From Natronohydrobacter sp. (GTDB lineage Bacteria > Pseudomonadota > Alphaproteobacteria > Rhodobacterales > Rhodobacteraceae), in contig JAFIEL010000002.1 of the NCBI GenBank assembly GCA_020832585.1, forward strand, positions 1-64,000: 64,000 bases of DNA. The letters run 5' to 3'. Each line of letters starts with the position of its first letter. Within the stretch, counting starts at the first letter, position 1. The notes below the pieces were generated by a model. The model ran no database searches. It was not told the DNA's origin and saw only the letters and a program-made list of their open reading frames with translations. Positions 45,187-64,000 of this stretch are shown one piece after another. Position numbers and translations under genes: made by a program.

Positions 45187-45866
45187 CAGCTTGCACGCTC
45201 GAGCACAGTGTCGCAAATCGCGCAGATGACTTCGACACTCGACACTGCGCCGGGGTCCAGATGCCCGATGCTGCGCTCTTGCAGACGGGCCGCGCGCCCC
45301 CTTGCCGACATGAGTGCTGCAGTTTCCGCGCAGGCATTGCGCGCGGCGTCACAGGTCTGACGGGCGATGTCAGAAGCCGGTAGCCCTGCACGCGCTGCAC
45401 GCTGCGCGGCCTGTGACGCGGGCAACCAGACATCGAGCATGGTCTTGTCGCCCGGCTGCGCCTGACCGCGTTTGCGGATACCCTCGGCACAGGCCGACAG
45501 CATCAACCCCAACTGGTCCAGTGTCAGGGGGGCGTTCTTTTCCAGACAGGTCGCGGCTTCAAGAAAGGCAGAGGCATAAAGCGGGCCGACCGTCGCGCCG
45601 ACCTCGCCCAGAAAGGCTTGCGCGGCGAGGCGCATCAACTCGGGCGGCGCTGCCGGGCCGCGTTTGCGCAGCATCCGGTCAATCGCGGCAAAACCATTCG
45701 CCATGGAGATGCCGTGGTCGCCGTCGCCGATTTCGCCATCAAGCTGGCACAGCGCCTGCCGCTTGCCTTCCAGCCGCACGGTGGCGAGCCGGAACATATC
45801 CGCGATGAATGGCGCATCGATCCCTGTCATGGCGCTATGGTTGGCGCTTTCGACAGGGGTTTTCAA
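45186..45866 (-). CDS. dhaL: Dihydroxyacetone kinase subunit DhaL
   Basis: DGEIGDGDHGISMANGFAA nucleotide/Mg motif, GATVGPLYASAFLEAA. Confidence 0.9.
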   Translation of the reverse strand: MKTPVESANHSAMTGIDAPFIADMFRLATVRLEGKRQALCQLDGEIGDGDHGISMANGFAAIDRMLRKRGPAAPPELMRLAAQAFLGEVGATVGPLYASAFLEAATCLEKNAPLTLDQLGLMLSACAEGIRKRGQAQPGDKTMLDVWLPASQAAQRAARAGLPASDIARQTCDAARNACAETAALMSARGRAARLQERSIGHLDPGAVSSVEVICAICDTVLERAS

Positions 45867-46510
45867 GCGCTTTCCAGCCTGCGGCTCAACCCCTCTGCGA
45901 AACCGGCCAGGATCAGGGCGCAGGAACTTGCACCCGCGTCCAGCACCCCGCGCGAGCGTTCGCCCAGCCGGGCCGATCGCCCGATCTTCGCCACCATGTC
46001 CACTGTGCTGTCGCGCCCGTTTTCGGCGGCGGCGCGCATCGCGGCAAGCGCGGTGCCAAACGCCGCGCCGCGCGCCTGTTCAAGCTCGAACGCCTCTACC
46101 GCCGGAACCAGCGCATCCAGCAGCGTCTTGTCGCCGACCTTGGCCGCGCCAATATCCTGCACCCCGTCCAAGCCTGCCCGGATCATCCGGCCAAAAGCGG
46201 CGCTGTCTATCGCATCAGCCCCGGACAGCGCATCGGCCATGTCGGAAAACATCATCCCGTAAAGCGGCCCCATCGACCCGCCGATTTCCGACATCAACAC
46301 ATCGGACAGGGTTTCCATCGCCTCGGTCAGCGTTGCTTCGGGGCTGATCCGTTCGGCAGCCCGGCCAAAGCCCTTGGCCATGTTGATCCCGTGATCACCA
46401 TCACCGATCTTGCCGTCGATCTCGGACAGCCAGGCCTTGTTCGCGACGATCACAGACGCAATTTCACGCAGGATTTCGCCCGCCCCGGCATTTGGAATGG
46501 CATCCATCAT
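45863..46510 (-). CDS. dhaL: Dihydroxyacetone kinase subunit DhaL (second copy)
   Basis: DGKIGDGDHGINMAKGFGRA, GGSMGPLYGMMFSDMA. Confidence 0.9.
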   Translation of the reverse strand: MMDAIPNAGAGEILREIASVIVANKAWLSEIDGKIGDGDHGINMAKGFGRAAERISPEATLTEAMETLSDVLMSEIGGSMGPLYGMMFSDMADALSGADAIDSAAFGRMIRAGLDGVQDIGAAKVGDKTLLDALVPAVEAFELEQARGAAFGTALAAMRAAAENGRDSTVDMVAKIGRSARLGERSRGVLDAGASSCALILAGFAEGLSRRLESA

Positions 46511-46519
46511 CCTGTCCTT

Positions 46520-47512
46520 TCAGAAGCCAGGGCAAGCGCAATCGAGATCGAGAAGCGCCTTCAACTCATCATCCAGCGCCATCACGGTCAGTGTGGCCCC
46601 CACCATGTCCAGCGAGGTGAAGTAATTTCCGACATAGGGCCGCCAGACCTTCAGCCCCCGCGCTTCAATCTGCTGCGCCATTCGGTCATACAGGACATAG
46701 AGTTCATTGACCGGCGTCGCCCCGAGGCCCGAGACCAGCACCGCGACCTCGGCACCTGCAGGCAGGTCGTGATCGTCAAGCACGATCCGCACCATGTCAT
46801 CGGCCACATCATTGGCCCGGCCAAGCGCCTCGACCCGCACACCGGGTTCGCCGTGATGGCCGATGCCGACCTCCATCTTTCCGGGCTCGATCTGGAAATT
46901 CGGATGCCCGACTGCAGGCAGCGTGCATGGCCCCAAACCCACACCCACCGAACGGCAATTATCGATGGCCTTCTGTGCGGCCGCAATCACGCCCGCCAGA
47001 TCGGCACCCTCTGCCGCCTTGGCCGCGCCTATTTTCCACATGAATATCTCACCAGCGACACCGCGTCGTTTTTCGCGTTCGTCCGGCGGGGCCGAGCAGA
47101 CATCATCATTGGCAACCACGGTTTCCACTGTGATGTTGTCCTTGGTGGCCATCTTGCGGGCCATTTTCACATTCATGTTGTCGCCAGCATAATTGCCATA
47201 CAACACCGCGACGCCCGCCCCGCCATCCGCCGCCCGGATCGCATCGTGAAAGGTCTTGGCCGTGGGCGAGGAAAACAGCTCGCCAACCGCGACCGCATCG
47301 AGCATGTTGCGCCCGGCATAGCCAATGAAGGCAGGTTCATGCCCGGACCCGCCGCCTGTGATGACGCCAACCCGACCCGGCGTCGCCGCCCAGTTCGACA
47401 CGACCACGCGCGGATTATCCGGCGACAAATGCACCATGTCACGATGGGCGCGCACGAAACCGGCAACGGTTTCATCGACGATATCATCGGGATTGTTGAA
47501 AAAACGTTGCAT
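46520..47512 (-). CDS. dhaK: Dihydroxyacetone kinase subunit DhaK (second, standalone)
   Basis: MQRFFNNPDDIVDETVAGFVRAH, GGGSGHEPAFIGYAG, MEVGIGHHGEPGVRVE. Confidence 0.92.
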   Translation of the reverse strand: MQRFFNNPDDIVDETVAGFVRAHRDMVHLSPDNPRVVVSNWAATPGRVGVITGGGSGHEPAFIGYAGRNMLDAVAVGELFSSPTAKTFHDAIRAADGGAGVAVLYGNYAGDNMNVKMARKMATKDNITVETVVANDDVCSAPPDEREKRRGVAGEIFMWKIGAAKAAEGADLAGVIAAAQKAIDNCRSVGVGLGPCTLPAVGHPNFQIEPGKMEVGIGHHGEPGVRVEALGRANDVADDMVRIVLDDHDLPAGAEVAVLVSGLGATPVNELYVLYDRMAQQIEARGLKVWRPYVGNYFTSLDMVGATLTVMALDDELKALLDLDCACPGF

Positions 47513-47522
47513 GTTTCTGTCC

Positions 47523-48290
47523 TTATTTGACTGTAAAGCCGCCATCGACGATCAGATCAGCCCCATTGATCATACCCGCCGCATCAGAGGCCAGAAACAC
47601 CGCAGCCGCAGCGATTTCACAAGGTTCGGCGAAACGGCCGGTCGGGATCTGTGCCTTCATGGCCTCTCCTTTTGGACCGGCCCAGGCGGATTTGCCCAAT
47701 TCGGTCAGAACCACAGTGGGCGAAACCGAATTGACCGTGATCCCATACTGTCCCCATTCCAGCGCAAGCGTCTTGGTCAGCCCGATTACACCGAATTTCG
47801 AGGCACAATAGGCAACATGCTGGTCAATCGCCACGCTACCTGCCTGCGAGGCAAGATTGATGATCCGCCCGGACCGCTGAGCGATCATCACACGGCCCAC
47901 TTCCTGTGCGACCAGAAAGCTGCCGGTCAGATTGACATCCAGCGTGCGCTGCCATGCCTCAAACGAAATATCCTCGGCTGGTGCCAGATCGACGATGCCC
48001 GCGCTGTTGACAAGAATATCGATGCGCCCAAACCCGGCGCGCACCTGTGCCACAGCCTTCGCGACCGAAGCCGGATCGGCGACGTTGCAGGCGCAGGCGA
48101 TAGCATCCTGAAGTGCGGCAGCGCGCGCGGTCGCGGCCTCTGCATTCAGATCGACAACCGCAACGCGCACGCCCTTGGCCGCCAGCGCCCCGGCGATTGC
48201 CGCACCGATGCCCGAAGCCGCGCCCGTCACAAGCGCCGTCTTGCCCCGCAACGGAAAATCATAATCGAGAGTGTCTGGACCTGCTGTCAT
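47523..48290 (-). CDS. SDR family oxidoreductase (polyol dehydrogenase candidate)
   Basis: TGAASGIGAAIAGALAAKG, NLASQAGSVAIDQHVAYCASKFG (YxxSK), C-term DLIVDGGFTVK. Confidence 0.9.
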   Translation of the reverse strand: MTAGPDTLDYDFPLRGKTALVTGAASGIGAAIAGALAAKGVRVAVVDLNAEAATARAAALQDAIACACNVADPASVAKAVAQVRAGFGRIDILVNSAGIVDLAPAEDISFEAWQRTLDVNLTGSFLVAQEVGRVMIAQRSGRIINLASQAGSVAIDQHVAYCASKFGVIGLTKTLALEWGQYGITVNSVSPTVVLTELGKSAWAGPKGEAMKAQIPTGRFAEPCEIAAAAVFLASDAAGMINGADLIVDGGFTVK

Positions 48291-48319
48291 ACCGGGCCTC
48301 CTGTCATTGTCTGGTACAG

Positions 48320-48350
48320 CCCGCCCGGCTGGCGATGCCAGCCGGGCGGG
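48320..48350. other. Strong intercistronic hairpin between SBP and SDR genes
   Basis: CCCGCCCGGCTGGC-GAT-GCCAGCCGGGCGGG, perfect 14-bp stem, no T-tract. Confidence 0.75.
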
Positions 48351-48363
48351 TTGGCGCAGTGCA

Positions 48364-49350
48364 TTACTGACGCATCTCCAGCAATGCGTCCACGTTTTCA
48401 AGCGTTACCGGCGTCCATGGCACGTTATATTGGGCATCCGCGCCACCGTTCCACGGCATGTCAGGATACTGTTCCCAGATGCTTGACATCGGCTCATACC
48501 CATCGATCACTGCGGCAAGCGCGACATCGAGCGCACCTTGCGCCTGCGCCGCACCATCTTGCAGGATCGACGCCATGTCCCCGGCCTTCACCGCCAGCAG
48601 CGCATCCGTCACACCGTCAATCCCGGCAATGGCGAAATCTGCAACATCCAGACCGGCAGCACGGATCGCTTCAATCGCACCAAGCGCCATCTCGTCATTC
48701 TGGCCAATCACGCCTTTGATATTGTCGCCATGCCGCGTCAGCCAGTTTTCCATCAGCGTCTGCGCCTCGGCGCGCGACCAGTTGGCGGTCTGCTGCTCCA
48801 GCACTGTCACATTCGGACATTCGGCCAAAGCTTTCTGGTTGCCTTCCAGACGCTCGATCTGCGCCGACTGGCCGATCGGGCCTTCGATGATCACGACGCC
48901 ACCTTCGCAGCCGATCTGGTCAAGCACATAGCGCGCTTCCATATAACCCGATTCGACATCGTTCGATCCGACATAGGACAACAACAGATCGCTGTTGACG
49001 CGTGTGTTCGACCCGACGACCGGAATGCCCGCGTCATGCGCAGCCTGAACAGCAGTGGCCCCGGCCTCGATGTCGATGGGAACAAAGATGATCGCATCGA
49101 AACCCTGCGTGATCATTGTCTCGAACTGTTCCTGCTGGACCAGCGCATCATAGCGCCCGTCGAAGACAGTCACATTCACCTTGCCCTCGACAACGGCAGG
49201 ATGCTGTGCCAGCGCGGCCGCCCAGAGCTGCATGAACTCTGCATTCAGGCCGTAGACCGCGGCACCGACGCGCGGCACGTCCTGCGCCATTGCGGATGTG
49301 CTGCCCAGCAGTGCAGCGGCGATAGTCATGGTTCTCAGAAGTTTCGTCAT
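48364..49350 (-). CDS. Sugar/polyol ABC transporter substrate-binding protein
   Basis: Signal peptide; periplasmic binding fold ...GQNDEMALGAIEAIRAAGLDVADFAIAGIDG. Confidence 0.88.
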   Translation of the reverse strand: MTKLLRTMTIAAALLGSTSAMAQDVPRVGAAVYGLNAEFMQLWAAALAQHPAVVEGKVNVTVFDGRYDALVQQEQFETMITQGFDAIIFVPIDIEAGATAVQAAHDAGIPVVGSNTRVNSDLLLSYVGSNDVESGYMEARYVLDQIGCEGGVVIIEGPIGQSAQIERLEGNQKALAECPNVTVLEQQTANWSRAEAQTLMENWLTRHGDNIKGVIGQNDEMALGAIEAIRAAGLDVADFAIAGIDGVTDALLAVKAGDMASILQDGAAQAQGALDVALAAVIDGYEPMSSIWEQYPDMPWNGGADAQYNVPWTPVTLENVDALLEMRQ

Positions 49351-49390
49351 CGTGCGTGTCCTCCCTTGGATTTGGCACAGTTTCTCTGTC

Positions 49391-49410
49391 CACCCACATG
49401 CAAGTGGGTG
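49391..49410. other. Intercistronic stem-loop between permease and SBP genes
   Basis: CACCCAC-ATGCAA-GTGGGTG. Confidence 0.5.
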
Positions 49411-49435
49411 CCAGAACTCTTGAAGGGCTCAGATG

Positions 49436-50428
49436 TCAGGCGTGCTTGTGACGCGCCTGATCCAGCATCACGGCTGCCACGATCAGCATCCCCTTGATGA
49501 CCTGCTGGTAGTAGGATTCCACCCCCATCAGATCGAGCCCGTTATTCACAACCGAAATCAGCAATGCCCCGATCAATGTCCCGGTGACGCGCCCTACCCC
49601 GCCCGAAAGCGACGTGCCGCCGATCACCACTGCCGCGATGGCATCAAGCTCATAGGCGACCCCGGCCTGCGGCAGCGCCGAGCCCGTCCGCGCAGCCAGC
49701 ACCATTCCCGCGAGGCCGGCCAGCGCACCTGATATGACATAGACCACCATGCGGACGCGTTTGACATTGATCCCCGACACCCGCGCTGCATGCGGGTTGC
49801 CCCCGGCCGCATAGACATGACGGCCAAAACGGGAGGATGACAGGACGAAATAGGCCAGCACGAAGACCAGTGCGAATAGGGCGATGGGCATGGGAACCCC
49901 GAACAGGTCGCCCGTGCCGATGAAGCGGTATTCCGGCGTCAGTGACGGAACCGGACGCCCCCCGGAATAGAGCAGGGTCAGACCGCGGGCCGCCGACAAC
50001 ATGCCAAGTGTCGTCACGAATGCCGGAACGTTGAAATAGGCCACCAGAATCCCGTTGATCCAGCCCGCGGCCATGCCCACAAGGATGCCGACAGCGAAAG
50101 CGATATAGAACGCATATGGTGCCCCCGCGACGGCCGCAGTACTGGAGGTGGTGGCCATTGACGCTGACACAACCCCGGCCAAGGCCACGACCGATCCAAC
50201 TGACAGGTCAATGCCGCGCGTCAGGATCACGAAGGTCATGCCAATGGCAAGGATCCCGTTGATCGAGGCCTGGCGCAGCACATTGATGATGTTGCGCTGG
50301 GTCAGGAAAAACTCATTGACCACCGACAACGCGACACAGACCAGCAAAAGCGCGATCAGGATGCCGTATTTCTGGCCATATTGCACGGCCATGGTCTTGA
50401 TGTCGCGATCCGCTGCAGTGGTGTTCAT
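49436..50428 (-). CDS. Sugar/polyol ABC transporter permease (RbsC family)
   Basis: GMTFVILTRGIDLSVGSVVALAGVVSA, VIGGTSLSGGVGRVTGTLIGA. Confidence 0.9.
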   Translation of the reverse strand: MNTTAADRDIKTMAVQYGQKYGILIALLLVCVALSVVNEFFLTQRNIINVLRQASINGILAIGMTFVILTRGIDLSVGSVVALAGVVSASMATTSSTAAVAGAPYAFYIAFAVGILVGMAAGWINGILVAYFNVPAFVTTLGMLSAARGLTLLYSGGRPVPSLTPEYRFIGTGDLFGVPMPIALFALVFVLAYFVLSSSRFGRHVYAAGGNPHAARVSGINVKRVRMVVYVISGALAGLAGMVLAARTGSALPQAGVAYELDAIAAVVIGGTSLSGGVGRVTGTLIGALLISVVNNGLDLMGVESYYQQVIKGMLIVAAVMLDQARHKHA

Positions 50429-50455
50429 TCCCCAAGTCTCCTTTCGCGGCGCGGG

Positions 50456-51937
50456 TTACGCGGCCAGATTCAGCAAAGCGGCGGCAGACAGTTCCGAACG
50501 CCCGACTTCGCCACTGATGCGCCCGTCGCGCAGCACGATCACGCGGTCGGCCATGCCCAGCACCTCGTCCGTTTCCGAACTGATCATGATCACGGCCCCA
50601 CCGCCTTGGGCGAATTCCGACATCACCCGGTAGATTTCACGCTTGGCGCCCACATCCACCCCGCGTGTCGGTTCATCCAGCAACAGGATATGCGGACGGG
50701 TCAGAAACCATTTGCCAAGCACCACTTTCTGCTGATTGCCCCCGGACAGCCCCGAGACATCCAGCCGGTCGGTCGGTGTCTTGATCCCGAAAGCTTCGAT
50801 CATCTGGCGCGCGGCGCTGGCTTCGCGCTTGCGGCTCATCAACCCGGCGCGCGACAGGTCTTCCAGTCGCGCCATGCAGATATTGTCGCGTACATCGGCC
50901 ATCAGGTTCAGACCCGAGCCCTTGCGATCCTCGGTCACGAAGGCCAGTCCTGCGTCAATCGCCTGTTTTGGCGCAGCAAGGGAAACACGCTTGCCCATCA
51001 AGGTGATCTCGCCACCTTCGTCAGGTAGCAGACCGAAAAGGCGCTCGAAAATCTCGCTACGCCCCGAGCCCATCAACCCGTAGAAAGCCAGGATTTCGCC
51101 ACGCCTCAGATCGAAACTCACATCACGCACGAAACCGGCGGAATTCAGCCCTGTGACTGTCATCACCGTCTCGTCGGTCGGGGTATTGGTCTTGGCGAAT
51201 TCCTCGGTCAGCGGGCGGCCCACGATCATCTCGATCAGGCGCTCGCGCGAGACATCTGCCATCGCGCCGCTTTGAACGAAGCGCCCATCGCGAAACACTG
51301 TGTATCTGTCAGCAATTCCGAAAATCTCGGACAGGCGGTGGGTGACATAGATGATGCCCTTGCCCTGCGCCTTCAGTCGCGCAATCGCCGCAAAAAGCTC
51401 ATCAGCCTGCGCTTCGCCCAAGGCGCTTGTCGGCTCATCCATGATGATGATCTCGGCGTTGTAGGACAGCGCCTTTGCGATCTCGACAAGCTGCAATTCC
51501 GCGACGGTCAGATCCATCATCAGGCTGCGGGCAGAAATGCGGAAATGCAGATCGTCAAGTAATGCCTGGGCGTCACGGTTCATCTTGCGGAAATCAACCC
51601 GCCCGAAGCGCCCGACAGGTTCCCGGCCCAGATAGATATTCTCGGCAACGCTCATCGCCGGAACCGGGCTCAGCTCTTGCTCGATAATCGAGATGCCCGC
51701 CGTCAACGCATCGGAGGGACGTGAGAAAACAGCGGCCTTCCCCATCACATTGACCGTGCCATTGTCGCGCTGCTCAATCCCCATGACGATTTTCAGAAAT
51801 GTCGATTTACCCGCGCCATTGCCCCCGCAAAGCGCATGGACCGAGCCGGGCATCAGCGTGAACTGACCGTCCGACAGCGCTGCAACGCCCCCGAAACTCT
51901 TGGTCAGACCACGCACCTCCAGTAGCGGCTGGGTCAT
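50456..51937 (-). CDS. Sugar/polyol ABC transporter ATP-binding protein (RbsA-type, two NBDs)
   Basis: CGGNGAGKST; IIMDEPTSALGEAQ; second NBD LSGGNQQKVVLGKWF, LLLDEPTRGVDVGAK. Confidence 0.9.
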   Translation of the reverse strand: MTQPLLEVRGLTKSFGGVAALSDGQFTLMPGSVHALCGGNGAGKSTFLKIVMGIEQRDNGTVNVMGKAAVFSRPSDALTAGISIIEQELSPVPAMSVAENIYLGREPVGRFGRVDFRKMNRDAQALLDDLHFRISARSLMMDLTVAELQLVEIAKALSYNAEIIIMDEPTSALGEAQADELFAAIARLKAQGKGIIYVTHRLSEIFGIADRYTVFRDGRFVQSGAMADVSRERLIEMIVGRPLTEEFAKTNTPTDETVMTVTGLNSAGFVRDVSFDLRRGEILAFYGLMGSGRSEIFERLFGLLPDEGGEITLMGKRVSLAAPKQAIDAGLAFVTEDRKGSGLNLMADVRDNICMARLEDLSRAGLMSRKREASAARQMIEAFGIKTPTDRLDVSGLSGGNQQKVVLGKWFLTRPHILLLDEPTRGVDVGAKREIYRVMSEFAQGGGAVIMISSETDEVLGMADRVIVLRDGRISGEVGRSELSAAALLNLAA

Positions 51938-51993
51938 CGTCTCCTCCTCGATCCTCCGTCCCGCTACAGGATGTATCAATCTGCCTTCATATG

Positions 51994-52008
51994 TCAAATA
52001 TTATTTGA
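51994..52008. promoter_or_regulatory. Candidate operator in AT-rich promoter of the polyol ABC/DHA-kinase operon
   Basis: TCAAATATTATTTGA perfect odd palindrome 57 bp upstream of the ATPase start. Confidence 0.4.
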
Positions 52009-52285: not shown

Positions 52286-53215
52286 CTATTTCAGATCCTG
52301 TGCGCCCGTATCGATGAAAGGGGCCCAGAATGCCACGCTCTCGGCGATCTGTGCAATCACTGCACGGTCATCAGGTTCGCGTTCCTTGAAGCTCAGCTCA
52401 AGGCAGATTTCGTTGTCCAGCGCACCACCTTCGGCAAGCGCCGCCATCAACGGTTCGGGCTGGACGCGCCCGCGTGCATTGTGTTGCGCCGTGAAGGGGC
52501 GATGCCCGCCCTTGTCCATCATCGACTGCTTGATGTGAATGATCGGGCTGACCGCAGGCACAGCACGGGCCCAGGCATAAGGGTCCGTATCCGCAGGATC
52601 AGGGCTGGTGACATCCCCGTGGTCGATATCTGCCATCATCCACATCGGCAAGGCCATCGCGGTTGCTGACAGCCGATCCTGCAAGGCCAGGCTCGAGGCG
52701 ATCGTTTCGCCGAATTCGCGGCCAATGCTCATCGGCTCCCAGAACAGAAAGGACAGGCCCGCCGAGTTTGCGTGTTCCGCAACTTCAGCCCAGCACGCGA
52801 TCGCCACATCGATCAAGGCCTCGCGTCGCGCCAGATCGTCGAAATCGCGATAAGTGAAGATCGCAAACTGCGTGCCGATGCTCTTGCCGCCCAACTCGGC
52901 AATGATATCGGCAAAGGTCTTGAACCATTCCACATGATATCGTCGCACATCGGCATCGGGATGGCCGAAGTGATTGAGCCTGCCATAAGGTCCGGTCATC
53001 CCCGAAGTGATCCGCACCCCGGTCTGGTTCAGGGCCTGGGCCATCTGCCGGGTCAGACGCCGCACAACCGGAGCAGGCCAGGACGGATTGATGAACTCAT
53101 GGGTCAGTTGCAGGTCACGGATGCGCAAATCGCGCGCCACGGTCTGGATCAGGTCATCGGGTTGCGCAAAGCGATTGACCAGAGGATTGGTGTTCAACGA
53201 CAGCGTCAGTGCCAT
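52286..53215 (-). CDS. EryC-like sugar phosphate isomerase/epimerase (TIM barrel)
   Basis: MALTLSLNTNPLVNRFAQPDDLIQTV...LFWEPMSIGREFGETIAS...HIKQSMMDKGGHRPFTAQHNARGR; located directly after GlpD/EryB-like gene. Confidence 0.7.
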   Translation of the reverse strand: MALTLSLNTNPLVNRFAQPDDLIQTVARDLRIRDLQLTHEFINPSWPAPVVRRLTRQMAQALNQTGVRITSGMTGPYGRLNHFGHPDADVRRYHVEWFKTFADIIAELGGKSIGTQFAIFTYRDFDDLARREALIDVAIACWAEVAEHANSAGLSFLFWEPMSIGREFGETIASSLALQDRLSATAMALPMWMMADIDHGDVTSPDPADTDPYAWARAVPAVSPIIHIKQSMMDKGGHRPFTAQHNARGRVQPEPLMAALAEGGALDNEICLELSFKEREPDDRAVIAQIAESVAFWAPFIDTGAQDLK

Positions 53216-53217
53216 GG

Positions 53218-54747
53218 TCACGCCGCCTGTGCCAAAGTGCGCTCGAACCAGTCCGCAAAGGCGGCTTGCTCCTGCGCGCTCAGATGCAGCCGGTGCTTGG
53301 TGCGCCGCCACAGGATATCCTCGGCGCTGAGCGCCCATTCATGCGCGACCAGATAGCGCACTTCCGCCTCATAGAGCAGGCCGCCGAAATGGCGCCCAAG
53401 CCCGGCCGTATCCTGTGCGCCATTGACCAGCTTGCGAAGGCGGGTGCCATAAAGCCGCGCATAATGCTCGCGCAGGGGGCGGGGCATCCAAGGATATTCC
53501 GCTTTCAGCGCGGCATGAAACAGATCGAAATCAGCCTGCGGCATGTCTCCTCCCGGCAGCGGTGCGGCGCGTGTCCAGACCTTGCCCATGTCAGGAAAAA
53601 ACCGCGAAATGCGGTTCAAACCGCGCTCGGCCAATTCGCGATAGGTCGTGATCTTGCCACCAAAGATATTCAGTATCGGCGCACCACCCGTCTCGTCGAT
53701 GTCGAATACATAATCCCGCGTGACAGCCGAAGGGTTGCCCTGACCGTCATCGAACAGCGGCCGCACCCCGGCAAAGCTCTCGACAACATCTGCCCGCGTC
53801 AGTTGTTCCTTGAAATAGCGGTTCACGGCGGACAGCAGATAGTCGATTTCCGACTCGTCTGGCGCCACATCCTCGGTGCGACCGTCATAGGCGATATCCG
53901 TTGTGCCGATCAGCGCCTTGTCGCCTTCGTAGGGATTTATGAAAATCACCCGCTTGTCATTGTTCTGCACCAGATAAGCATTCTGCCCGGTCCAGAATTT
54001 CGGCACGATGATGTGTGAACCCTTCACCAACCGCACATTGCGGGCCGAATTTGACCCTGCCACGCGCGTGATCACGTCACTGACCCAAGGCCCGGCGGCA
54101 TTGACCAGCATCCGTGCCATGAATTCACGGGTCTCGCCGGTCACAGTGCTGCGTGTGGTTACGCGCCAGAATGCACCGTCACGTCGGGCAGACATGCAGG
54201 CTGTGCGGGTCAGAACCTGCGCCCCGCGTTCGGCTGCATCCAGTGCATTCAGGATCACAAGCCGCGCATCGTCGACCCAGCAATCGGAATATTCGAAACC
54301 GCGCGCATACTTGTCCAGCAAGGCCGCGCCTTCTGGTGCCGTGCGCAGGTCAAGCACGCGCGTTCCAGGCAGTTTTCTGCGCCCACCCAGATGATCATAC
54401 AGAAACAGCCCCAACCGCACCAACCACGCAGGCCGGTCTTCGGGGGAATGGGGCAAGACGAAGCGCATCGGCCAGATGATATGCGGGGCCGCATTCATCA
54501 GCACCTCTCGCTCGATCAGCGCCTCGCGCACCAGCCGGAATTCGTAATATTCAAGATAGCGCAGCCCGCCATGCACCAGCTTTCCGGAACGCGACGATGT
54601 GCCTTCGGCCAGATCATCCTTCTCGCACAGCACAACACTAAGGCCACGGCCAGCCGCATCACGGGCAATCCCTGCCCCGTTGATGCCGCCTCCGATCACA
54701 AACAGATCAACCATGTTCTGTTCTGGCATGTGTTCACTTCCCATCAA
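53218..54747 (-). CDS. GlpD/EryB-like FAD-dependent polyol-phosphate dehydrogenase
   Basis: DLFVIGGGINGAGIARDAAGRGLSVVLCEKDDLAEGTSSRSGKLVHGGLRYLEYYEFRLVREAL. Confidence 0.85.
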   Translation of the reverse strand: MMGSEHMPEQNMVDLFVIGGGINGAGIARDAAGRGLSVVLCEKDDLAEGTSSRSGKLVHGGLRYLEYYEFRLVREALIEREVLMNAAPHIIWPMRFVLPHSPEDRPAWLVRLGLFLYDHLGGRRKLPGTRVLDLRTAPEGAALLDKYARGFEYSDCWVDDARLVILNALDAAERGAQVLTRTACMSARRDGAFWRVTTRSTVTGETREFMARMLVNAAGPWVSDVITRVAGSNSARNVRLVKGSHIIVPKFWTGQNAYLVQNNDKRVIFINPYEGDKALIGTTDIAYDGRTEDVAPDESEIDYLLSAVNRYFKEQLTRADVVESFAGVRPLFDDGQGNPSAVTRDYVFDIDETGGAPILNIFGGKITTYRELAERGLNRISRFFPDMGKVWTRAAPLPGGDMPQADFDLFHAALKAEYPWMPRPLREHYARLYGTRLRKLVNGAQDTAGLGRHFGGLLYEAEVRYLVAHEWALSAEDILWRRTKHRLHLSAQEQAAFADWFERTLAQAA

Positions 54748-57967: not shown

Positions 57968-59011
57968 TCAGCACGGGTTCCTCGGACTTTCACCGGCGAG
58001 ATAGCGCCGGACCTCTTCGGCGGCCTGTTCGGCAGCATAGGTCACTGTCCGCACAGAGGCTCCGGCAATATGCGGGGTCAGCGTGACATTCGGGAGCTGC
58101 AAGAGCGGCCAGTCGGCGGGCGCAGGTTCCACGGAAAAGGTCTCCAGCATCGCGCCCGCAATCTGTCCAGACACAAGCGCCTCATAGAGCGCTTCATAGT
58201 CACATAGCGGCCCGCGCGCCGTATTGATGAAAATCGCATCCGGCTTCATGCGTGCGAACGCGTCGCTGTCCATCATGCCGCGCGTTTCTTCGGTGACGCG
58301 CGCATGCATCGAAACTATGTCAGACTCCGTCAGAACCGTCTCCAGATCAACATGCGAGATTTCCGGGTCACGCGCATCTGCCTCGCTGAGCTGAACATAA
58401 GGATCACAGACCAGCACCTTGGTCCCGAAGGCCCGAAGCAGCCGCACGACGCGCGATCCGATCGCGCCATAGCCGATGACGCCCACGGTCATTTCACTCA
58501 ATTCGCGCCCTGTCACATCCGCCCGGTACAGATCGCCGCGCCATTCACCCGCGCGCAGGGCCTCGTGCCCGGCGCGGATGCGCCGTGTCTCGGACAGGAT
58601 CGCGCCCAAGGTGAACTCGGCCACGGCGGTCGAATTGCGCCCCGGCGTGTTCACCACCCGCACACCATGTGCACGCGCCGCAGCCATGTCGATATTGACC
58701 GGCCCGCCCCGCGACACTGCGATCATGCGCAGATCGGGCAATCGGGCGAACATCCCGCGCGACATTGGCGCGAGATGCGTCACAAGGATCTGTGCGTCGC
58801 CAATGAATTCCACCACATCATCGGCAGTGCCGAAATACTCTTTCAGCCCGTCCATGCCCTCGACCGCATAGCCATGTTCCATCGGCAAATCAGGCCAGGC
58901 ATCCTGTCGGCTGCGGATTTCCACACCGTTCGGGCATACGGCACGGATCGCCGTCTCGAAAGCCGAAGGCAGCATGAACAGATCGCCAATGATGGCAATT
59001 TTGACAGTCAT
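57968..59011 (-). CDS. 2-hydroxyacid dehydrogenase family protein
   Basis: VGVIGYGAIGSRVVRLLRAFGTKVLVCDPY, FINTARGPLCDYEALYEAL, LTPHIAGASVRT. Confidence 0.88.
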   Translation of the reverse strand: MTVKIAIIGDLFMLPSAFETAIRAVCPNGVEIRSRQDAWPDLPMEHGYAVEGMDGLKEYFGTADDVVEFIGDAQILVTHLAPMSRGMFARLPDLRMIAVSRGGPVNIDMAAARAHGVRVVNTPGRNSTAVAEFTLGAILSETRRIRAGHEALRAGEWRGDLYRADVTGRELSEMTVGVIGYGAIGSRVVRLLRAFGTKVLVCDPYVQLSEADARDPEISHVDLETVLTESDIVSMHARVTEETRGMMDSDAFARMKPDAIFINTARGPLCDYEALYEALVSGQIAGAMLETFSVEPAPADWPLLQLPNVTLTPHIAGASVRTVTYAAEQAAEEVRRYLAGESPRNPC

Positions 59012-60579
59012 TCCAGTCTCTCCAGTGGATTGCTTGCCAGCCGCCGCCAGACCGGCGGGGCCGCTTCGCGCAGGGCCAGATAGGCGGGGAACAGATGCGC
59101 ATATCGCGCCTGCAATTCGGGACGCGGGGTTTCGGCAGGGCCAAGCTGGGGTTCGACCCAATCACGCAGGCAAGCGTCCATGTCATCATACACACCGATG
59201 GCGCAGGCTGCGATCATCGCGGCACCCGCAGCGCCCGCCTCTTCGCGGCCAGAGCTGCGCACAGGCGCACCGATTGCCGCGGCCATGATATCGCGCAGCC
59301 CCCGCGACCGCGCGGCACCGCCCGTCAGGCGGATCTCTGCCGGGATGGGGCTCATCGCCCGGTAACAGTCATGGGCCGAATATCCCAGACCCTCGATCAC
59401 AGCGCGCACCAGATCGCCAAAACGATGCGCCGACGCCAGACCGGCAAACCCCGCGCGCGCGGATCCATCGACAAAAGGACCGCGCTCGCCCGCTTCCGAG
59501 ATATAGGGATGATAAAGGATCTGTCCCGGTTTGCTTGCCGAAAGCCAGCCATCGATGCGGCCGACCAAATCCGCCTGGCTGACCTCATGACCGAATTCCG
59601 CCATCATCTCGGCGGCCAGTTTCAAAAGCCAGTCAATATTCAGCGTTGCGGCCATATTCGACTGGATCTGCGCCACAAGCCCCGGAACCGGCAGGATCAT
59701 CACATAGCCCGTGCGCGCCTCGTTGAGTGTGACATCGGCAATCGCTGTCGCGCGCATATGCATCCCGGTCGATCCGACGATGGTGCACCCCGCCAGCGCG
59801 CCGGGCGTATAGATCCCCGCACCCATCGCCGTGCAGACCACATCGACATACCCCAGACAGACCGGCGTTCCGGCCAGCAGGCCAGAGTCGCGCGCTGCGG
59901 CCTCGGTCAGAGGATGACTGGTTGTCACCCCGTCCAGCACCGGCGGCAGGATGTGGCGTTGCGCCGACAAGCCAAGCGCCTCGACCACGCTTTCGTCATA
60001 GGCGCGGTGACGGAAATTGCCGAAGGTAAACCCGACCTCGCTGGGATCGGTCGCGCGTATGCCGGTCAGGTTCAGATACAGCCAGTCCTTGCAATGCAAC
60101 GCAACCTCGGTCTGCGCCAGCCAATCGGGATGATGGCGCTGCATATGGGCCAGTTGCGTACCCATCTGACAGGCATTCAGCCCCGACCCGGTCGCCGCGA
60201 AGCGGGCGGGATCAGCGGGATCGGCCCGCAGGCGTGTGACCTCGTCATGCGCGCGCCCGTCCAGCCACAGCCAGGCTTCGGTCACAGGGCTGTTTTCCGC
60301 GCCGACAAGCCAGGTGCCATCCCCCTGCCCTGTCACCGAAATCGCCGCAACGCGCCCCGCCAGTCCGGGCAGTTTCCCAGCCAGCATGCGTAAGGTCTGG
60401 GCGCAGTCACGCCATGTCTGCGCCATATCCTGTACGGCCGCCCCATCGGGTCGCGTGGTGTAACTGTTGGGAACCGACGCCACGGCCAGTTGCGCGCCCG
60501 CCAGCGAGAAGGCCACGGATTTGATCACCGATGTTCCGGCATCGATCCCGATCAGGATATCACCGCCCGTAACACTCAT
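59008..60579 (-). CDS. FGGY-family kinase, EryA-like (erythritol kinase candidate)
   Basis: ILIGIDAGTSVIKSVAFSLAGAQLA, AISVTGQGDGTWLVG, LTGGAARSRGLRDIMAAAIGAPV; neighbourhood contains EryB/EryC-like genes. Confidence 0.8.
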   Translation of the reverse strand: MSVTGGDILIGIDAGTSVIKSVAFSLAGAQLAVASVPNSYTTRPDGAAVQDMAQTWRDCAQTLRMLAGKLPGLAGRVAAISVTGQGDGTWLVGAENSPVTEAWLWLDGRAHDEVTRLRADPADPARFAATGSGLNACQMGTQLAHMQRHHPDWLAQTEVALHCKDWLYLNLTGIRATDPSEVGFTFGNFRHRAYDESVVEALGLSAQRHILPPVLDGVTTSHPLTEAAARDSGLLAGTPVCLGYVDVVCTAMGAGIYTPGALAGCTIVGSTGMHMRATAIADVTLNEARTGYVMILPVPGLVAQIQSNMAATLNIDWLLKLAAEMMAEFGHEVSQADLVGRIDGWLSASKPGQILYHPYISEAGERGPFVDGSARAGFAGLASAHRFGDLVRAVIEGLGYSAHDCYRAMSPIPAEIRLTGGAARSRGLRDIMAAAIGAPVRSSGREEAGAAGAAMIAACAIGVYDDMDACLRDWVEPQLGPAETPRPELQARYAHLFPAYLALREAAPPVWRRLASNPLERLE

Positions 60580-61700
60580 GCCATTTCCGTCCCGTGACTG
60601 ATGGCGCGGCCTGTTTCCGGGTCAAAAATATGCAGCGCATCCGCTGGCAGGGCGATCCCGATACTCTGGCCCACCTGAACATCCGCGCGGTCATGCTCGA
60701 CCAGAACCAATGTGCCCCCTGCAAAGCTTGCCGCGATATGGGTCTGATCGCCCAGCCATTGATTGGCCAGAACCTGGGCCGGGCTGCCCCCTGTGCGGCT
60801 CATGCGCACGGAATACGGTCGCAGCCCAAGCATCACGTCACCGCGCGACAGGATCGCGGCGCGCACCTCGGGTGCAAAATCCGTTGCAGGGTATCGCAGC
60901 ACCACGTTGTCCTCCAGACGCAGCACCAGCGCGTCGCCTTCAGTTACCGCTTTGGCCGCAAAGGTGTTCATCGGCGGCTCGCCAACAAAAGTGCCGGTGA
61001 ACAGGTTTGCGGGCGCTGTCTTGATCTGCTCGGGGCTGGCGAATTGTTGCAGCACACCCGCCTCCATGACCGCGATCTGGTCCGCCATCGCATTGGCTTC
61101 GGCCTGATCATGCGTCACAAGGATCGCGGTCAGGCCACGTTCCTTGATATAGAACTTGATCCGCCCGCGCAGCAGCGTGCGCAACTGCGGCTCTAGCTGC
61201 CCCATCGGTTCATCCAGCAGATAAAGATCCGCCTTGCGCACCAGTGCCCGCGCAAGCGAGGCGCGCTGCTGCTGTCCGCCCGAAATCGAGCTGGGGTAAC
61301 GGTCCAGAATGCCCGCGATTTCCAGCATCTCGGCCACGTCCTGCACCTTGGCGCGCACATCCGCATCGCTTTCCCGCTGGGCCTTGAGAGCAAAGGCGAT
61401 GTTCTCGCGAACGGTCACTGTCGGATAGAGCGAGTAGCCTTCAAACGCCATCGCGACATTGCGACGGACCGGGGGAAGCGCCTGAATCTCGCGCCCGGCC
61501 AGAATGATCTTGCCTTGCGAGACTTCCTCGAAACCGGCGACCATGCGCAGGGTCGAGGTCTTGCCACAGCCCGATGATCCCAGAAGGGCCACGATATCAC
61601 CTTGCCGGATCTCCATGTCCAGATCCTTGACCGCGTGAACACCGCGAAGAACCGGGCCATAATACTTGTTCAGGCCCTGAAGGCTGAGTTGCACTGTCAT
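60576..61700 (-). CDS. Carbohydrate ABC transporter ATP-binding protein 1 (MalK/UgpC type)
   Basis: LGSSGCGKTSTL, ISGGQQQRASLARALV, YLLDEPMGQLEPQL, VTHDQAEANAMAD; Q-loop position AMAFEGYSLYP. Confidence 0.9.
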   Translation of the reverse strand: MTVQLSLQGLNKYYGPVLRGVHAVKDLDMEIRQGDIVALLGSSGCGKTSTLRMVAGFEEVSQGKIILAGREIQALPPVRRNVAMAFEGYSLYPTVTVRENIAFALKAQRESDADVRAKVQDVAEMLEIAGILDRYPSSISGGQQQRASLARALVRKADLYLLDEPMGQLEPQLRTLLRGRIKFYIKERGLTAILVTHDQAEANAMADQIAVMEAGVLQQFASPEQIKTAPANLFTGTFVGEPPMNTFAAKAVTEGDALVLRLEDNVVLRYPATDFAPEVRAAILSRGDVMLGLRPYSVRMSRTGGSPAQVLANQWLGDQTHIAASFAGGTLVLVEHDRADVQVGQSIGIALPADALHIFDPETGRAISHGTEMA

Positions 61701-62812
61701 TGCAGGGCTCCTTGCGGCACGGTCGCCTTGGCAGCACCAACAATCCGGCGGCCTGTCGCACGCTCGAACAGATGTAGCGATGAGGGATCAGGCAACACAT
61801 GTGCGACTCCCATGCTCGGAGCCTCCTGGGTCGCAGGGCGCGAAATCATGACCTCGCGGCCGTTTCTGGTCAGGGCTAGCGTGATGGTCTTTTCATTCAG
61901 GGGCGCTTCGGTCTCGATCGTGACCGGGATAGCCCCGGCCGTATCTGCGGGTACGAATTTCAGCGCCTCGGCACGGATGCCAAGCGTGCAGTCGCGCCCC
62001 ACGGCCTGTTCAAATGCCGCACCCAATGGCACCGCCACGCCGGAAAGCATCGCCTGCACCCGCCCGTCAACCATCTGGGGCGTGACATCCAGAAGATTGA
62101 TCACCGGATCACCGAAAAGCCGCGCGATCTCGACTGTTGCCGGGCGCAGATAGATGTCTTCGGGTGTGCCGATCTGATGGATCTGGCCCGCATCCAGCAC
62201 CGCGATCGTATCGCCAAGCGCCATCGCTTCCTTGTAGTCCTGCGTAACATAGATCACGGTCGCCCCCTGACTTTTCAGCAGGCGCGGTAATTCCAGTCGC
62301 ATCTCGAAGCGCAGTTTTGCATCGACATTGCGCAATGGATCATCCAGCAACAGAACATCGGGTGCCGCGGCAAGCGCACGGGCAAGCGACGTGCGCTGCT
62401 TCTGGCCATTGGACAATTCCTTGGGCTTGTGATGCAGCACATGCTCGATCTTGAGCATCCGCGCGACCCTGGACACGGTCTCGGCCATGCTGGCCTTGTC
62501 CATGCGCCGCGCAGTCAGGGGGGCGGCGATATTCTTGCGCGCGTCCATATGCGGAAACAACGCGAAGTTCTGAAACGCCATGCCCAGCCCGCGATCTTCC
62601 GGCTCGACCCCGGTCATGTCCTGCCCGCCAATCGCGATCCGGCCTTCATCCGGGTCGATCACACCCGCGATCAGCCGCAAGAGCACAGTCTTGCCCGCCC
62701 CGGACGGGCCGAACAGGACCAGCGTTTCCCCGCGCGCCACGTCCAGCGACACTCCGTCCAGAACAGTCTCGGACTTGTATCTTTTGACGATATTCTCAAG
62801 TGACAGGCTCAT
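61697..62812 (-). CDS. Carbohydrate ABC transporter ATP-binding protein 2 (MalK/UgpC type, degenerate motifs)
   Basis: FGPSGAGKTVLLR, LSNGQKQRTSLARALA, LLLDDPLRNVDAKL, YVTQDYKEAMALGD. Confidence 0.9.
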   Translation of the reverse strand: MSLSLENIVKRYKSETVLDGVSLDVARGETLVLFGPSGAGKTVLLRLIAGVIDPDEGRIAIGGQDMTGVEPEDRGLGMAFQNFALFPHMDARKNIAAPLTARRMDKASMAETVSRVARMLKIEHVLHHKPKELSNGQKQRTSLARALAAAPDVLLLDDPLRNVDAKLRFEMRLELPRLLKSQGATVIYVTQDYKEAMALGDTIAVLDAGQIHQIGTPEDIYLRPATVEIARLFGDPVINLLDVTPQMVDGRVQAMLSGVAVPLGAAFEQAVGRDCTLGIRAEALKFVPADTAGAIPVTIETEAPLNEKTITLALTRNGREVMISRPATQEAPSMGVAHVLPDPSSLHLFERATGRRIVGAAKATVPQGALQ

Positions 62813-62815
62813 GTC

Positions 62816-63673
62816 TTACCCTTTCACCGCGCCAAGGCTCAGGCCTTCGACCAGATAGCGCTGCGCCAGAATGGCCAGAAGGAAGGTCGGCGTGATCGAC
62901 AGCACGATCCCTGCCGCGATCTGACCATATTGAATCCCGGATGCCGTGACGAAGGCGAGCGCGCCCACAGTCACCGGCTGCTTGTCCGCCGAAGCCAGAA
63001 CCAGCGCGAAGATGAAATTGTTCCACGCGAAGATGAAGGCCAGCAGTCCCGCCGCCGCAATACCGGGCATGGCAAGCGGCAGCGACACTTTCCAGAACGT
63101 CGCCCAGAAATCATGCCCGGCGATGCGATAGGCGTATTCGACATCCGCCGGGATATCCTCGAAATAACCGCGCACGATCCACAGGATCAGCGGCAGCACA
63201 ATCAACTGATACACCCAGATCAGGCCGCCATAGGTGTTGGACAGGCCAAGTTGCTGGAAATAGATCGTCAGCGGCAGCAACACCAGCAAAGGCGGGGCGA
63301 AACGGAACGACAGCAACGTGAAGGCGATATCCTCGGACCCGCGGAATTTCAGCCGGGCAAAGGCATAGGCCGCGGGCACCCCAAGCAACAGCCCCACCGC
63401 GACCGACGTCGCTGACAGGAAGAACGAGTTGTAGAGATTGCTCATGAAGCGGATCTCCAGCGTGCTGGTCTGGGTTTCCAGCCGCCCCGTGATCAGTGCC
63501 CGATAATTCTGCAAGGTTGGCTCGAACACCATAGAGGGCGGCACCCGCAGAATGGTTTCGTTCGTCTGGAAACTCATCAGAAGAATCCAGAAGATCGGGA
63601 ACATGAAGAACAAGATCACAAGGCTGATCGCGATACCGCGCAGCACACGTTCCACGGGTCCGGTGGTATCCAT
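62816..63673 (-). CDS. Carbohydrate ABC transporter permease (MalG type)
   Basis: Multi-TM with EAA-like loop DVEYAYRIAGHDFWATFWKVSLPLAMPGIAAAG. Confidence 0.9.
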   Translation of the reverse strand: MDTTGPVERVLRGIAISLVILFFMFPIFWILLMSFQTNETILRVPPSMVFEPTLQNYRALITGRLETQTSTLEIRFMSNLYNSFFLSATSVAVGLLLGVPAAYAFARLKFRGSEDIAFTLLSFRFAPPLLVLLPLTIYFQQLGLSNTYGGLIWVYQLIVLPLILWIVRGYFEDIPADVEYAYRIAGHDFWATFWKVSLPLAMPGIAAAGLLAFIFAWNNFIFALVLASADKQPVTVGALAFVTASGIQYGQIAAGIVLSITPTFLLAILAQRYLVEGLSLGAVKG

Positions 63674-63687
63674 GTCTCTCTCCTGGC

Positions 63688-64000
63688 TCAGGCTTCGCCG
63701 CGCTGCTTTTCGCGCAGTCGCAGCCAGTTCTTGATGAAAATGCTCGAAAGCACATAGGTGATGGCCCACAGGATCAGCAGCAGTGCCGCCGACCGGCCCA
63801 CATTGGTCGCCTGAAAGAAATTCAGATAGGCTTCGACCTGAAACACCATCAGCGTATTGCCCGGCCCGCCCTGGGTCATTGCATAGATGATGTCGAATTG
63901 CTGGATCGACTCGATCACCCGGAACAGGGTCGCGGTCAGCAGAAAGGGCATCAGCATCGGCAGGGTGATGCGCCAGAACACGAACAGACGCGGCACACCG
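63688..64000 (-). CDS. Carbohydrate ABC transporter permease (MalF type), truncated by window end
   Basis: RLFVFWRITLPMLMPFLLTATLFRVIESIQQFDIIYAMTQGGPGNTLMVFQVEAYLNFF; reading frame runs off the window. Confidence 0.85.
   Translation of the reverse strand, partial: GVPRLFVFWRITLPMLMPFLLTATLFRVIESIQQFDIIYAMTQGGPGNTLMVFQVEAYLNFFQATNVGRSAALLLILWAITYVLSSIFIKNWLRLREKQRGEA

Follow-up and report, generated by a model that had tools for sequence, protein, structure and literature searches.

How does an importer hydrolyse ATP when its two ATPases each carry different altered motifs? The question is raised by two adjacent genes in a 64,000-nucleotide stretch of the Natronohydrobacter sp. genome (assembly GCA_020832585.1, contig JAFIEL010000002.1, positions 1 to 64,000), referred to here as the window. 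The genes encode two MalK-type ATPases of an ATP-binding cassette (ABC) transporter, designated ATPase 1 and ATPase 2. The reading that we consider the probable one is an MptABCDE-type importer in which the two ATPases would form an obligate heterodimer with two composite sites, site I hydrolysing ATP and site II mainly holding it.

Both open reading frames and every motif quoted in a first-pass annotation of the window were found letter for letter. They are listed below, with counts that refer to a set of 97 loci described afterwards.

60576-61700, minus strand: ATPase 1, open reading frame of 374 amino acids; Pfam ABC_tran and TOBE_2; fold match to MalK structures.
Within ATPase 1, minus strand: Walker A GSSGCGKT, intact.
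61440-61442, minus strand: Glu (E87) of the ATPase 1 Q-loop MAFEGYSLYP; invariant, 97/97 loci.
61272-61286, minus strand: ATPase 1 signature ISGGQ (residues 139-143), essentially consensus; I/V/LSGGQ in 95/97 loci and ISAGQ in 2.
61206-61220, minus strand: ATPase 1 Walker B LLDEP with the catalytic Glu (E164); invariant in readable rows.
61191-61202, minus strand: ATPase 1 D-loop GQLE, with Glu (E170) where Asp is usual; QLE wherever the row is readable.
61107-61118, minus strand: ATPase 1 H-loop VTHD (H197); invariant.
61697-62812, minus strand: ATPase 2, open reading frame of 371 amino acids; Pfam ABC_tran; MalK structures matched with a TM-score of about 0.75-0.80.
Within ATPase 2, minus strand: Walker A GPSGAGKT, intact.
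62564-62581, minus strand: ATPase 2 Q-loop MAFQNF(ALFP), Q81; Gln retained in 97/97 loci.
62402-62416, minus strand: ATPase 2 signature LSNGQ (N135); 97/97 loci.
62336-62350, minus strand: ATPase 2 Walker B LLDDP, D158 for the catalytic Glu; 97/97 loci.
62237-62248, minus strand: ATPase 2 H-loop VTQD, Q191 for the switch His; 97/97 loci.

The two genes share 4 bp (ATGA). ATPase 1 is a MalK-type subunit in which Walker A/B and H-loop are intact and both the Q-loop and the D-loop carry Glu. ATPase 2 is a MalK-type subunit with an LSNGQ signature, Asp in place of the catalytic Glu and Gln in place of the switch His. Five positions of the pair are thus altered. All of the changes named in the first-pass annotation are real, but it missed the fifth, the D-loop GQLE of ATPase 1. 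At this D-loop ATPase 2 keeps its Asp (RNVD), and the canonical single-ATPase MalK relatives read SNLD. The ABC_tran domain was recognised in both proteins and TOBE_2 passed the cut-off in ATPase 1, whereas OB_MalK stayed below it in both (23 bits against the required 27). The predicted structures of both match MalK-type structures. As in CUT1/MalK-type importers, the ATPases combine a nucleotide-binding domain (NBD) with a C-terminal OB/TOBE-type domain, and the operon supplies two permeases (BPD_transp_1) and a binding protein (SBP_bac_1).

A scan of 84,980 species genomes gave 339 relatives, and the best 80 of the 339, together with plasmid and genome loci, make up the set of 97 loci, 92 of them distinct. 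The two ATPase genes are adjacent in every one, and neither was met without its partner. The Q-loop Glu, LSNGQ, LLDDP and VTQD recur without exception, and so does the D-loop Glu but for one unreadable row. The divergence between distinct pairs reaches 53%, in ATPase 1 as in ATPase 2; the invariant columns number 105/373 and 88/366 in the two alignments, and the pairwise distances of the two ATPases correlate with r = 0.95. The species-genome scan was pre-selected on the peptides GMAFQNF or QDYKEAM and is therefore biased at two motifs. However, 25 pairs from whole-protein and profile searches, in which motif pre-selection was absent, carry the same residues. Six of 150 family genomes (the window genome counted) hold an ATPase 2 gene, and all six have both ATPases adjacent with the same residues. 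In a phylum-wide search, 12 of the 16 matches were canonical ATPases and were excluded from membership. Among the other MalK-like ATPases read from the window genome, nearly all are canonical here, with Q, LSGGQ, E and H; only the genome's own GlpT deviates, together with one pair on contig C112, at the Gln of its signature. The substitutions, for which the first-pass annotation had left room for error, are thus conserved, being fixed in 92 distinct pairs and in the 25 pairs from unbiased searches. That it is so strictly fixed across alphaproteobacteria shows the asymmetry to be functional.

The ATP sites of ABC ATPases are composite (PMC7756269), and this logic gives the assignment of the two putative sites. 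The ATPases are predicted to form an obligate 1:1 heterodimer beneath the two permeases. Site I would be formed by the Walker A/B, Q-loop (Glu) and His of ATPase 1 together with the LSNGQ signature and D-loop of ATPase 2. As it retains Glu and His, it would be the main hydrolytic site, tuned by the Q-loop Glu and the Asn of the facing signature. Site II would be formed by the Walker A/B of ATPase 2 with its Asp/Gln, the Q-loop Gln and the LSGGQ of ATPase 1. It would hold ATP with slow or absent hydrolysis, and the dimer would stay partly engaged, so that one ATP would be spent per cycle. In favour of this, Asp/Gln is also what the degenerate site of the exporter PatAB carries (PMC9541285), and sites with Asp for Glu are reported to hydrolyse far more slowly, at a rate too low to drive transport directly (PMC7756269). 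Neither site of the pair is fully consensus, since site I departs at Q-loop and signature and site II at Asp/Gln and D-loop. The first-pass annotation had correctly placed the altered signature opposite the Glu/His and the intact one opposite the Asp/Gln; it overlooked that the former site also has the Q-loop Glu and that the latter receives the altered D-loop of ATPase 1. The conservation and the 1:1:1:1:1 operon lend strong support to its broader proposal that the two ATPases of one transporter form an asymmetric pair whose changes complement each other. In permease 2 the EAA loop reads EYAYRIAGH, which is non-canonical and conserved, whereas permease 1 keeps EAAALDG (86-87 sequences). Because of this loop, the coupling helices may be asymmetric as well.

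Several points weigh against this assignment. In human transporters that have one degenerate site, the altered signature is always part of that site (PMC7756269). Here, in contrast, LSNGQ faces the intact Glu/His, and for this reason site I itself may be weakened. The probable Mpt identity, treated below, rests on locus architecture. The domain orientation in the single-chain model of ATPase 1 is also uncertain (predicted TM-score, pTM, 0.61).

Among the other explanations, the one that survives best is that both sites hydrolyse ATP, the mild substitutions compensating across the interface in an ordinary two-ATP importer with unusual residues. Conservative exchanges (E to D, H to Q, Q to E, D to E) predominate, the Walker A lysines are intact, and sites with Asp for Glu are reported to retain slow hydrolysis (PMC7756269). 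However, in exporters it is the degenerate site that bears this Asp/Gln pair (PMC9541285), and Glu or His is restored in none of the 92 distinct pairs. We therefore regard this explanation as rather unlikely. It is improbable that the roles are reversed, with the Q-loop Glu and signature Asn making site I slow or structural and the Asp-bearing ATPase 2 site hydrolysing. The ATPase 2 site does have the Q-loop Gln, with an LSGGQ opposite that is almost consensus, but ATPase 2 is without the two residues linked most directly to hydrolysis, the catalytic Glu and the switch His (PMC9541285). Still less probable are separate homodimers, or two transporters being served, with no asymmetric site. MalK is a homodimer, and there are MalK-type ATPases that serve several transporters (PMC7658222); against this stand the adjacent genes with their 4-bp overlap, the co-occurrence in 97/97 loci, and the single binding protein and two permeases per operon. 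Moreover, an ATPase 2 homodimer would carry two doubly degenerate sites. Sequencing error or decay of a dying gene, which a fragmented source genome (259 contigs, 87% complete) might suggest, is refuted by the conservation in 92 distinct pairs, the same residues recurring with intact frames in isolates, metagenome-assembled genomes and complete replicons over many genera, and it deserves almost no credence.

The transporter to which the pair belongs was approached through the neighbouring genes, which are the following.

62816-63670, minus strand: permease 2 (MalG-like) of the same transporter, with the EAA loop described above.
63688-64000, minus strand: permease 1 (MalF-like), truncated by the window end.
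59008-60579, minus strand: FGGY kinase, EryA-like; 60% to annotated Marinovum EryA.
53218-54720, minus strand: polyol-phosphate dehydrogenase resembling EryB; 81% identity with the annotated EryB of Marinovum.
52286-53338, minus strand: TIM-barrel protein resembling EryC; 80% identity with the annotated EryC of Marinovum.
Beyond the window on the contig (L135:3689-4612, 4764-6212 and 6240-7181): permease 1, binding protein and EryD-like regulator.

The operon order is regulator, binding protein, two permeases, ATPase 2, ATPase 1 and then the EryA-, EryB- and EryC-like enzymes. The regulator, of the sugar-binding type, is 66% identical to EryD. The binding protein (L135:4764-6212) starts with a twin-arginine-like leader, KIDRRELLRG. 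In 84 loci, the regulator, binding protein, permease 1, permease 2, ATPase 2, ATPase 1 and FGGY kinase were each present in 79-84, EryB in 73 and EryC in 47. The near-universal order was the first seven of these followed by a 2-hydroxyacid dehydrogenase. The window transporter is probably orthologous to MptABCDE of Sinorhizobium meliloti, because the locus architecture matches the S. meliloti ery/mpt locus; the comparison was made via strain Ak57. A five-gene transporter between EryD and EryA, as in the ery/rbt locus, was found in Ak57 and in about 80 other loci. The genes run in the same order as in S. meliloti, with the EryD-like regulator, binding protein, permease pair, ATPase pair and EryA in common, and FucA, EryB, EryC, EryR, TpiB and RpiB are further shared neighbours. 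The binding proteins of the window transporter and of the Ak57 locus share 70% identity, which exceeds the 56% identity used as the cut-off for MptA (PMC3599248). The Ak57 locus holds the 17 genes expected of the ery/rbt locus, one of them read by tblastn alone. The fucA gene is present there and absent from the S. fredii NGR234 locus, as was likewise described for S. meliloti and NGR234 (PMC3599248). Two other Mpt candidates in Ak57 were rejected: the locus at 3.41 Mb is GlpST, and that at 3.11 Mb has a single ATPase. The fitting locus is that of the pair itself at 2.51 Mb. The transporter type has already been characterised genetically, and MptABCDE of S. meliloti transports erythritol, adonitol (ribitol) and L-arabitol (PMC3599248, PMC10433430). 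By analogy, erythritol, ribitol and L-arabitol would be the substrates of the window transporter.

Two side observations were made around these loci. At 45863-51997, adjoining the ery-like genes on the same strand, lie genes for a CUT2 (ribose-type) ABC transporter, accompanied by SDR and DhaK/DhaL-like kinase genes, which suggests a second uptake route for polyols or ketoses. The Ak57 record CP090106.1 (3.7 Mb), labelled pSymB, contains both the ery/mpt-type locus and the genes of the F0F1 ATP synthase, and for this reason looks like a chromosome under the wrong label.

The first-pass annotation had suggested an alignment with the GlpS/GlpT pairs of glycerol transporters. These were compared from Rhizobium, Tistrella, Sulfitobacter, S. 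meliloti and the window genome's own glycerol transporter. GlpSTPQV is also a CUT1-type importer with two distinct asymmetric ATPases, and the switch His is lost in GlpS as in ATPase 2. However, the identity to the window pair is about 28-38% and the motif pattern is another. In GlpS, ATTEP replaces VTHD (His to Thr) with LSGGQ and DEP intact; in GlpT, LTAD replaces the LSGG signature with Q, E and H intact. Because ABC sites are composite, every GlpST defect falls in one site and the other is consensus, whereas the defects of the window pair are split over both. GlpS/GlpT thus show asymmetry too, but a different form of it, with one consensus and one degenerate site. The ATTEP and LTAD motifs do not occur in the window pair. 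The DUF2160 small protein, GlpV-type binding protein and GlpK of the Rhizobium and Sulfitobacter glp operons were not seen in the window operon, which matches MptABCDE instead. On the grounds of low identity, different motifs and a different operon, orthology to GlpS/GlpT was rejected, and the pair is not counted as a GlpS/GlpT relative.

In the trees, ATPase 2 groups with GlpS (support 97/89, and 99/90 after removal of the motif columns). ATPase 1 is unplaced, and its grouping with GlpT is neither supported nor rejected (approximately unbiased test, p-AU 0.455 and 0.225). An ancient split shared with GlpS/GlpT is supported for the ATPase 2 and GlpS half, with long branches in play. ATPase 1 and ATPase 2 do not come out as sisters in the tree; their sisterhood has a p-AU of 0.195 with all columns and 0.045 without the motif columns, and duplication of one ATPase in place is only weakly disfavoured. 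In the window genome, contig C74 (L137:3-1843) carries the GlpS/GlpT glycerol transporter, with ATTEP in GlpS and LTAD in GlpT. As this pair differs from the window pair, the genome has two kinds of asymmetric importer ATPase pairs. A third two-ATPase pair, on contig C112 (L136:3-1869), has LSGGD and LSGGE signatures with Glu and His intact, and is followed immediately downstream by a dihydroxyacetone-kinase-like gene.

Among exporters, asymmetry is well established. The degenerate-site residues D490 and Q521 of PatA in the exporter PatAB (PMC9541285) correspond to D158 and Q191 of ATPase 2, with Asp/Gln replacing Glu/His in one subunit. On the other hand, the altered signature of PatAB sits in the degenerate site, and that of the window pair in the opposite one, where LSNGQ would face the Walker site of ATPase 1. 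The heterodimeric exporters PatAB, TM287/288 and BmrCD also have the exporter fold and no binding protein, whereas the window operon has MalF/MalG-type permeases and a binding protein. The exporter-like Asp/Gln pair in an importer ATPase suggests that the same solution was arrived at independently. Among importers, degenerate sites have already been noted for the type II proteins RbsA and NupO, each with one degenerate ATP site (PMC11466899). There the NBDs are fused in one polypeptide and the Walker A lysine is lost as well; the window ATPases are separate subunits with Walker A intact in both. MalFGK2 resembles the window transporter in the ATPase fold with a C-terminal regulatory domain and in its two distinct permeases, but its MalK homodimer has two identical sites.

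The first-pass annotation held that asymmetry is less discussed for carbohydrate importers. Degenerate sites are not entirely new there in view of RbsA and NupO, and GlpS/GlpT show another pattern, but for MalK-type importers no paper on asymmetric ATP sites was found, which is weak evidence because most subscription journals were outside the search. LSNGQ appeared in no ABC transporter paper found. The ATPase asymmetry is unmentioned in PMC3599248 and PMC10433430, which name MptABCDE; the original 2012 Mpt paper was outside the search.

The pair is real, conserved and testable. Whether an importer hydrolyses one or two ATP per cycle has been studied mostly on symmetric models such as MalFGK2, in which the two sites are not easily changed independently. 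In a natural importer whose two ATPases are non-equivalent and encoded by separate genes, each site can be mutated alone, and GlpS/GlpT provide a second natural pattern of asymmetry within the superfamily. We give about even chances to the full picture of a split asymmetry fixed in a carbohydrate importer family, with neither site consensus and a single productive hydrolysis per cycle. If true, such a single-hydrolysis cycle would contrast with the symmetric MalFGK2 paradigm.

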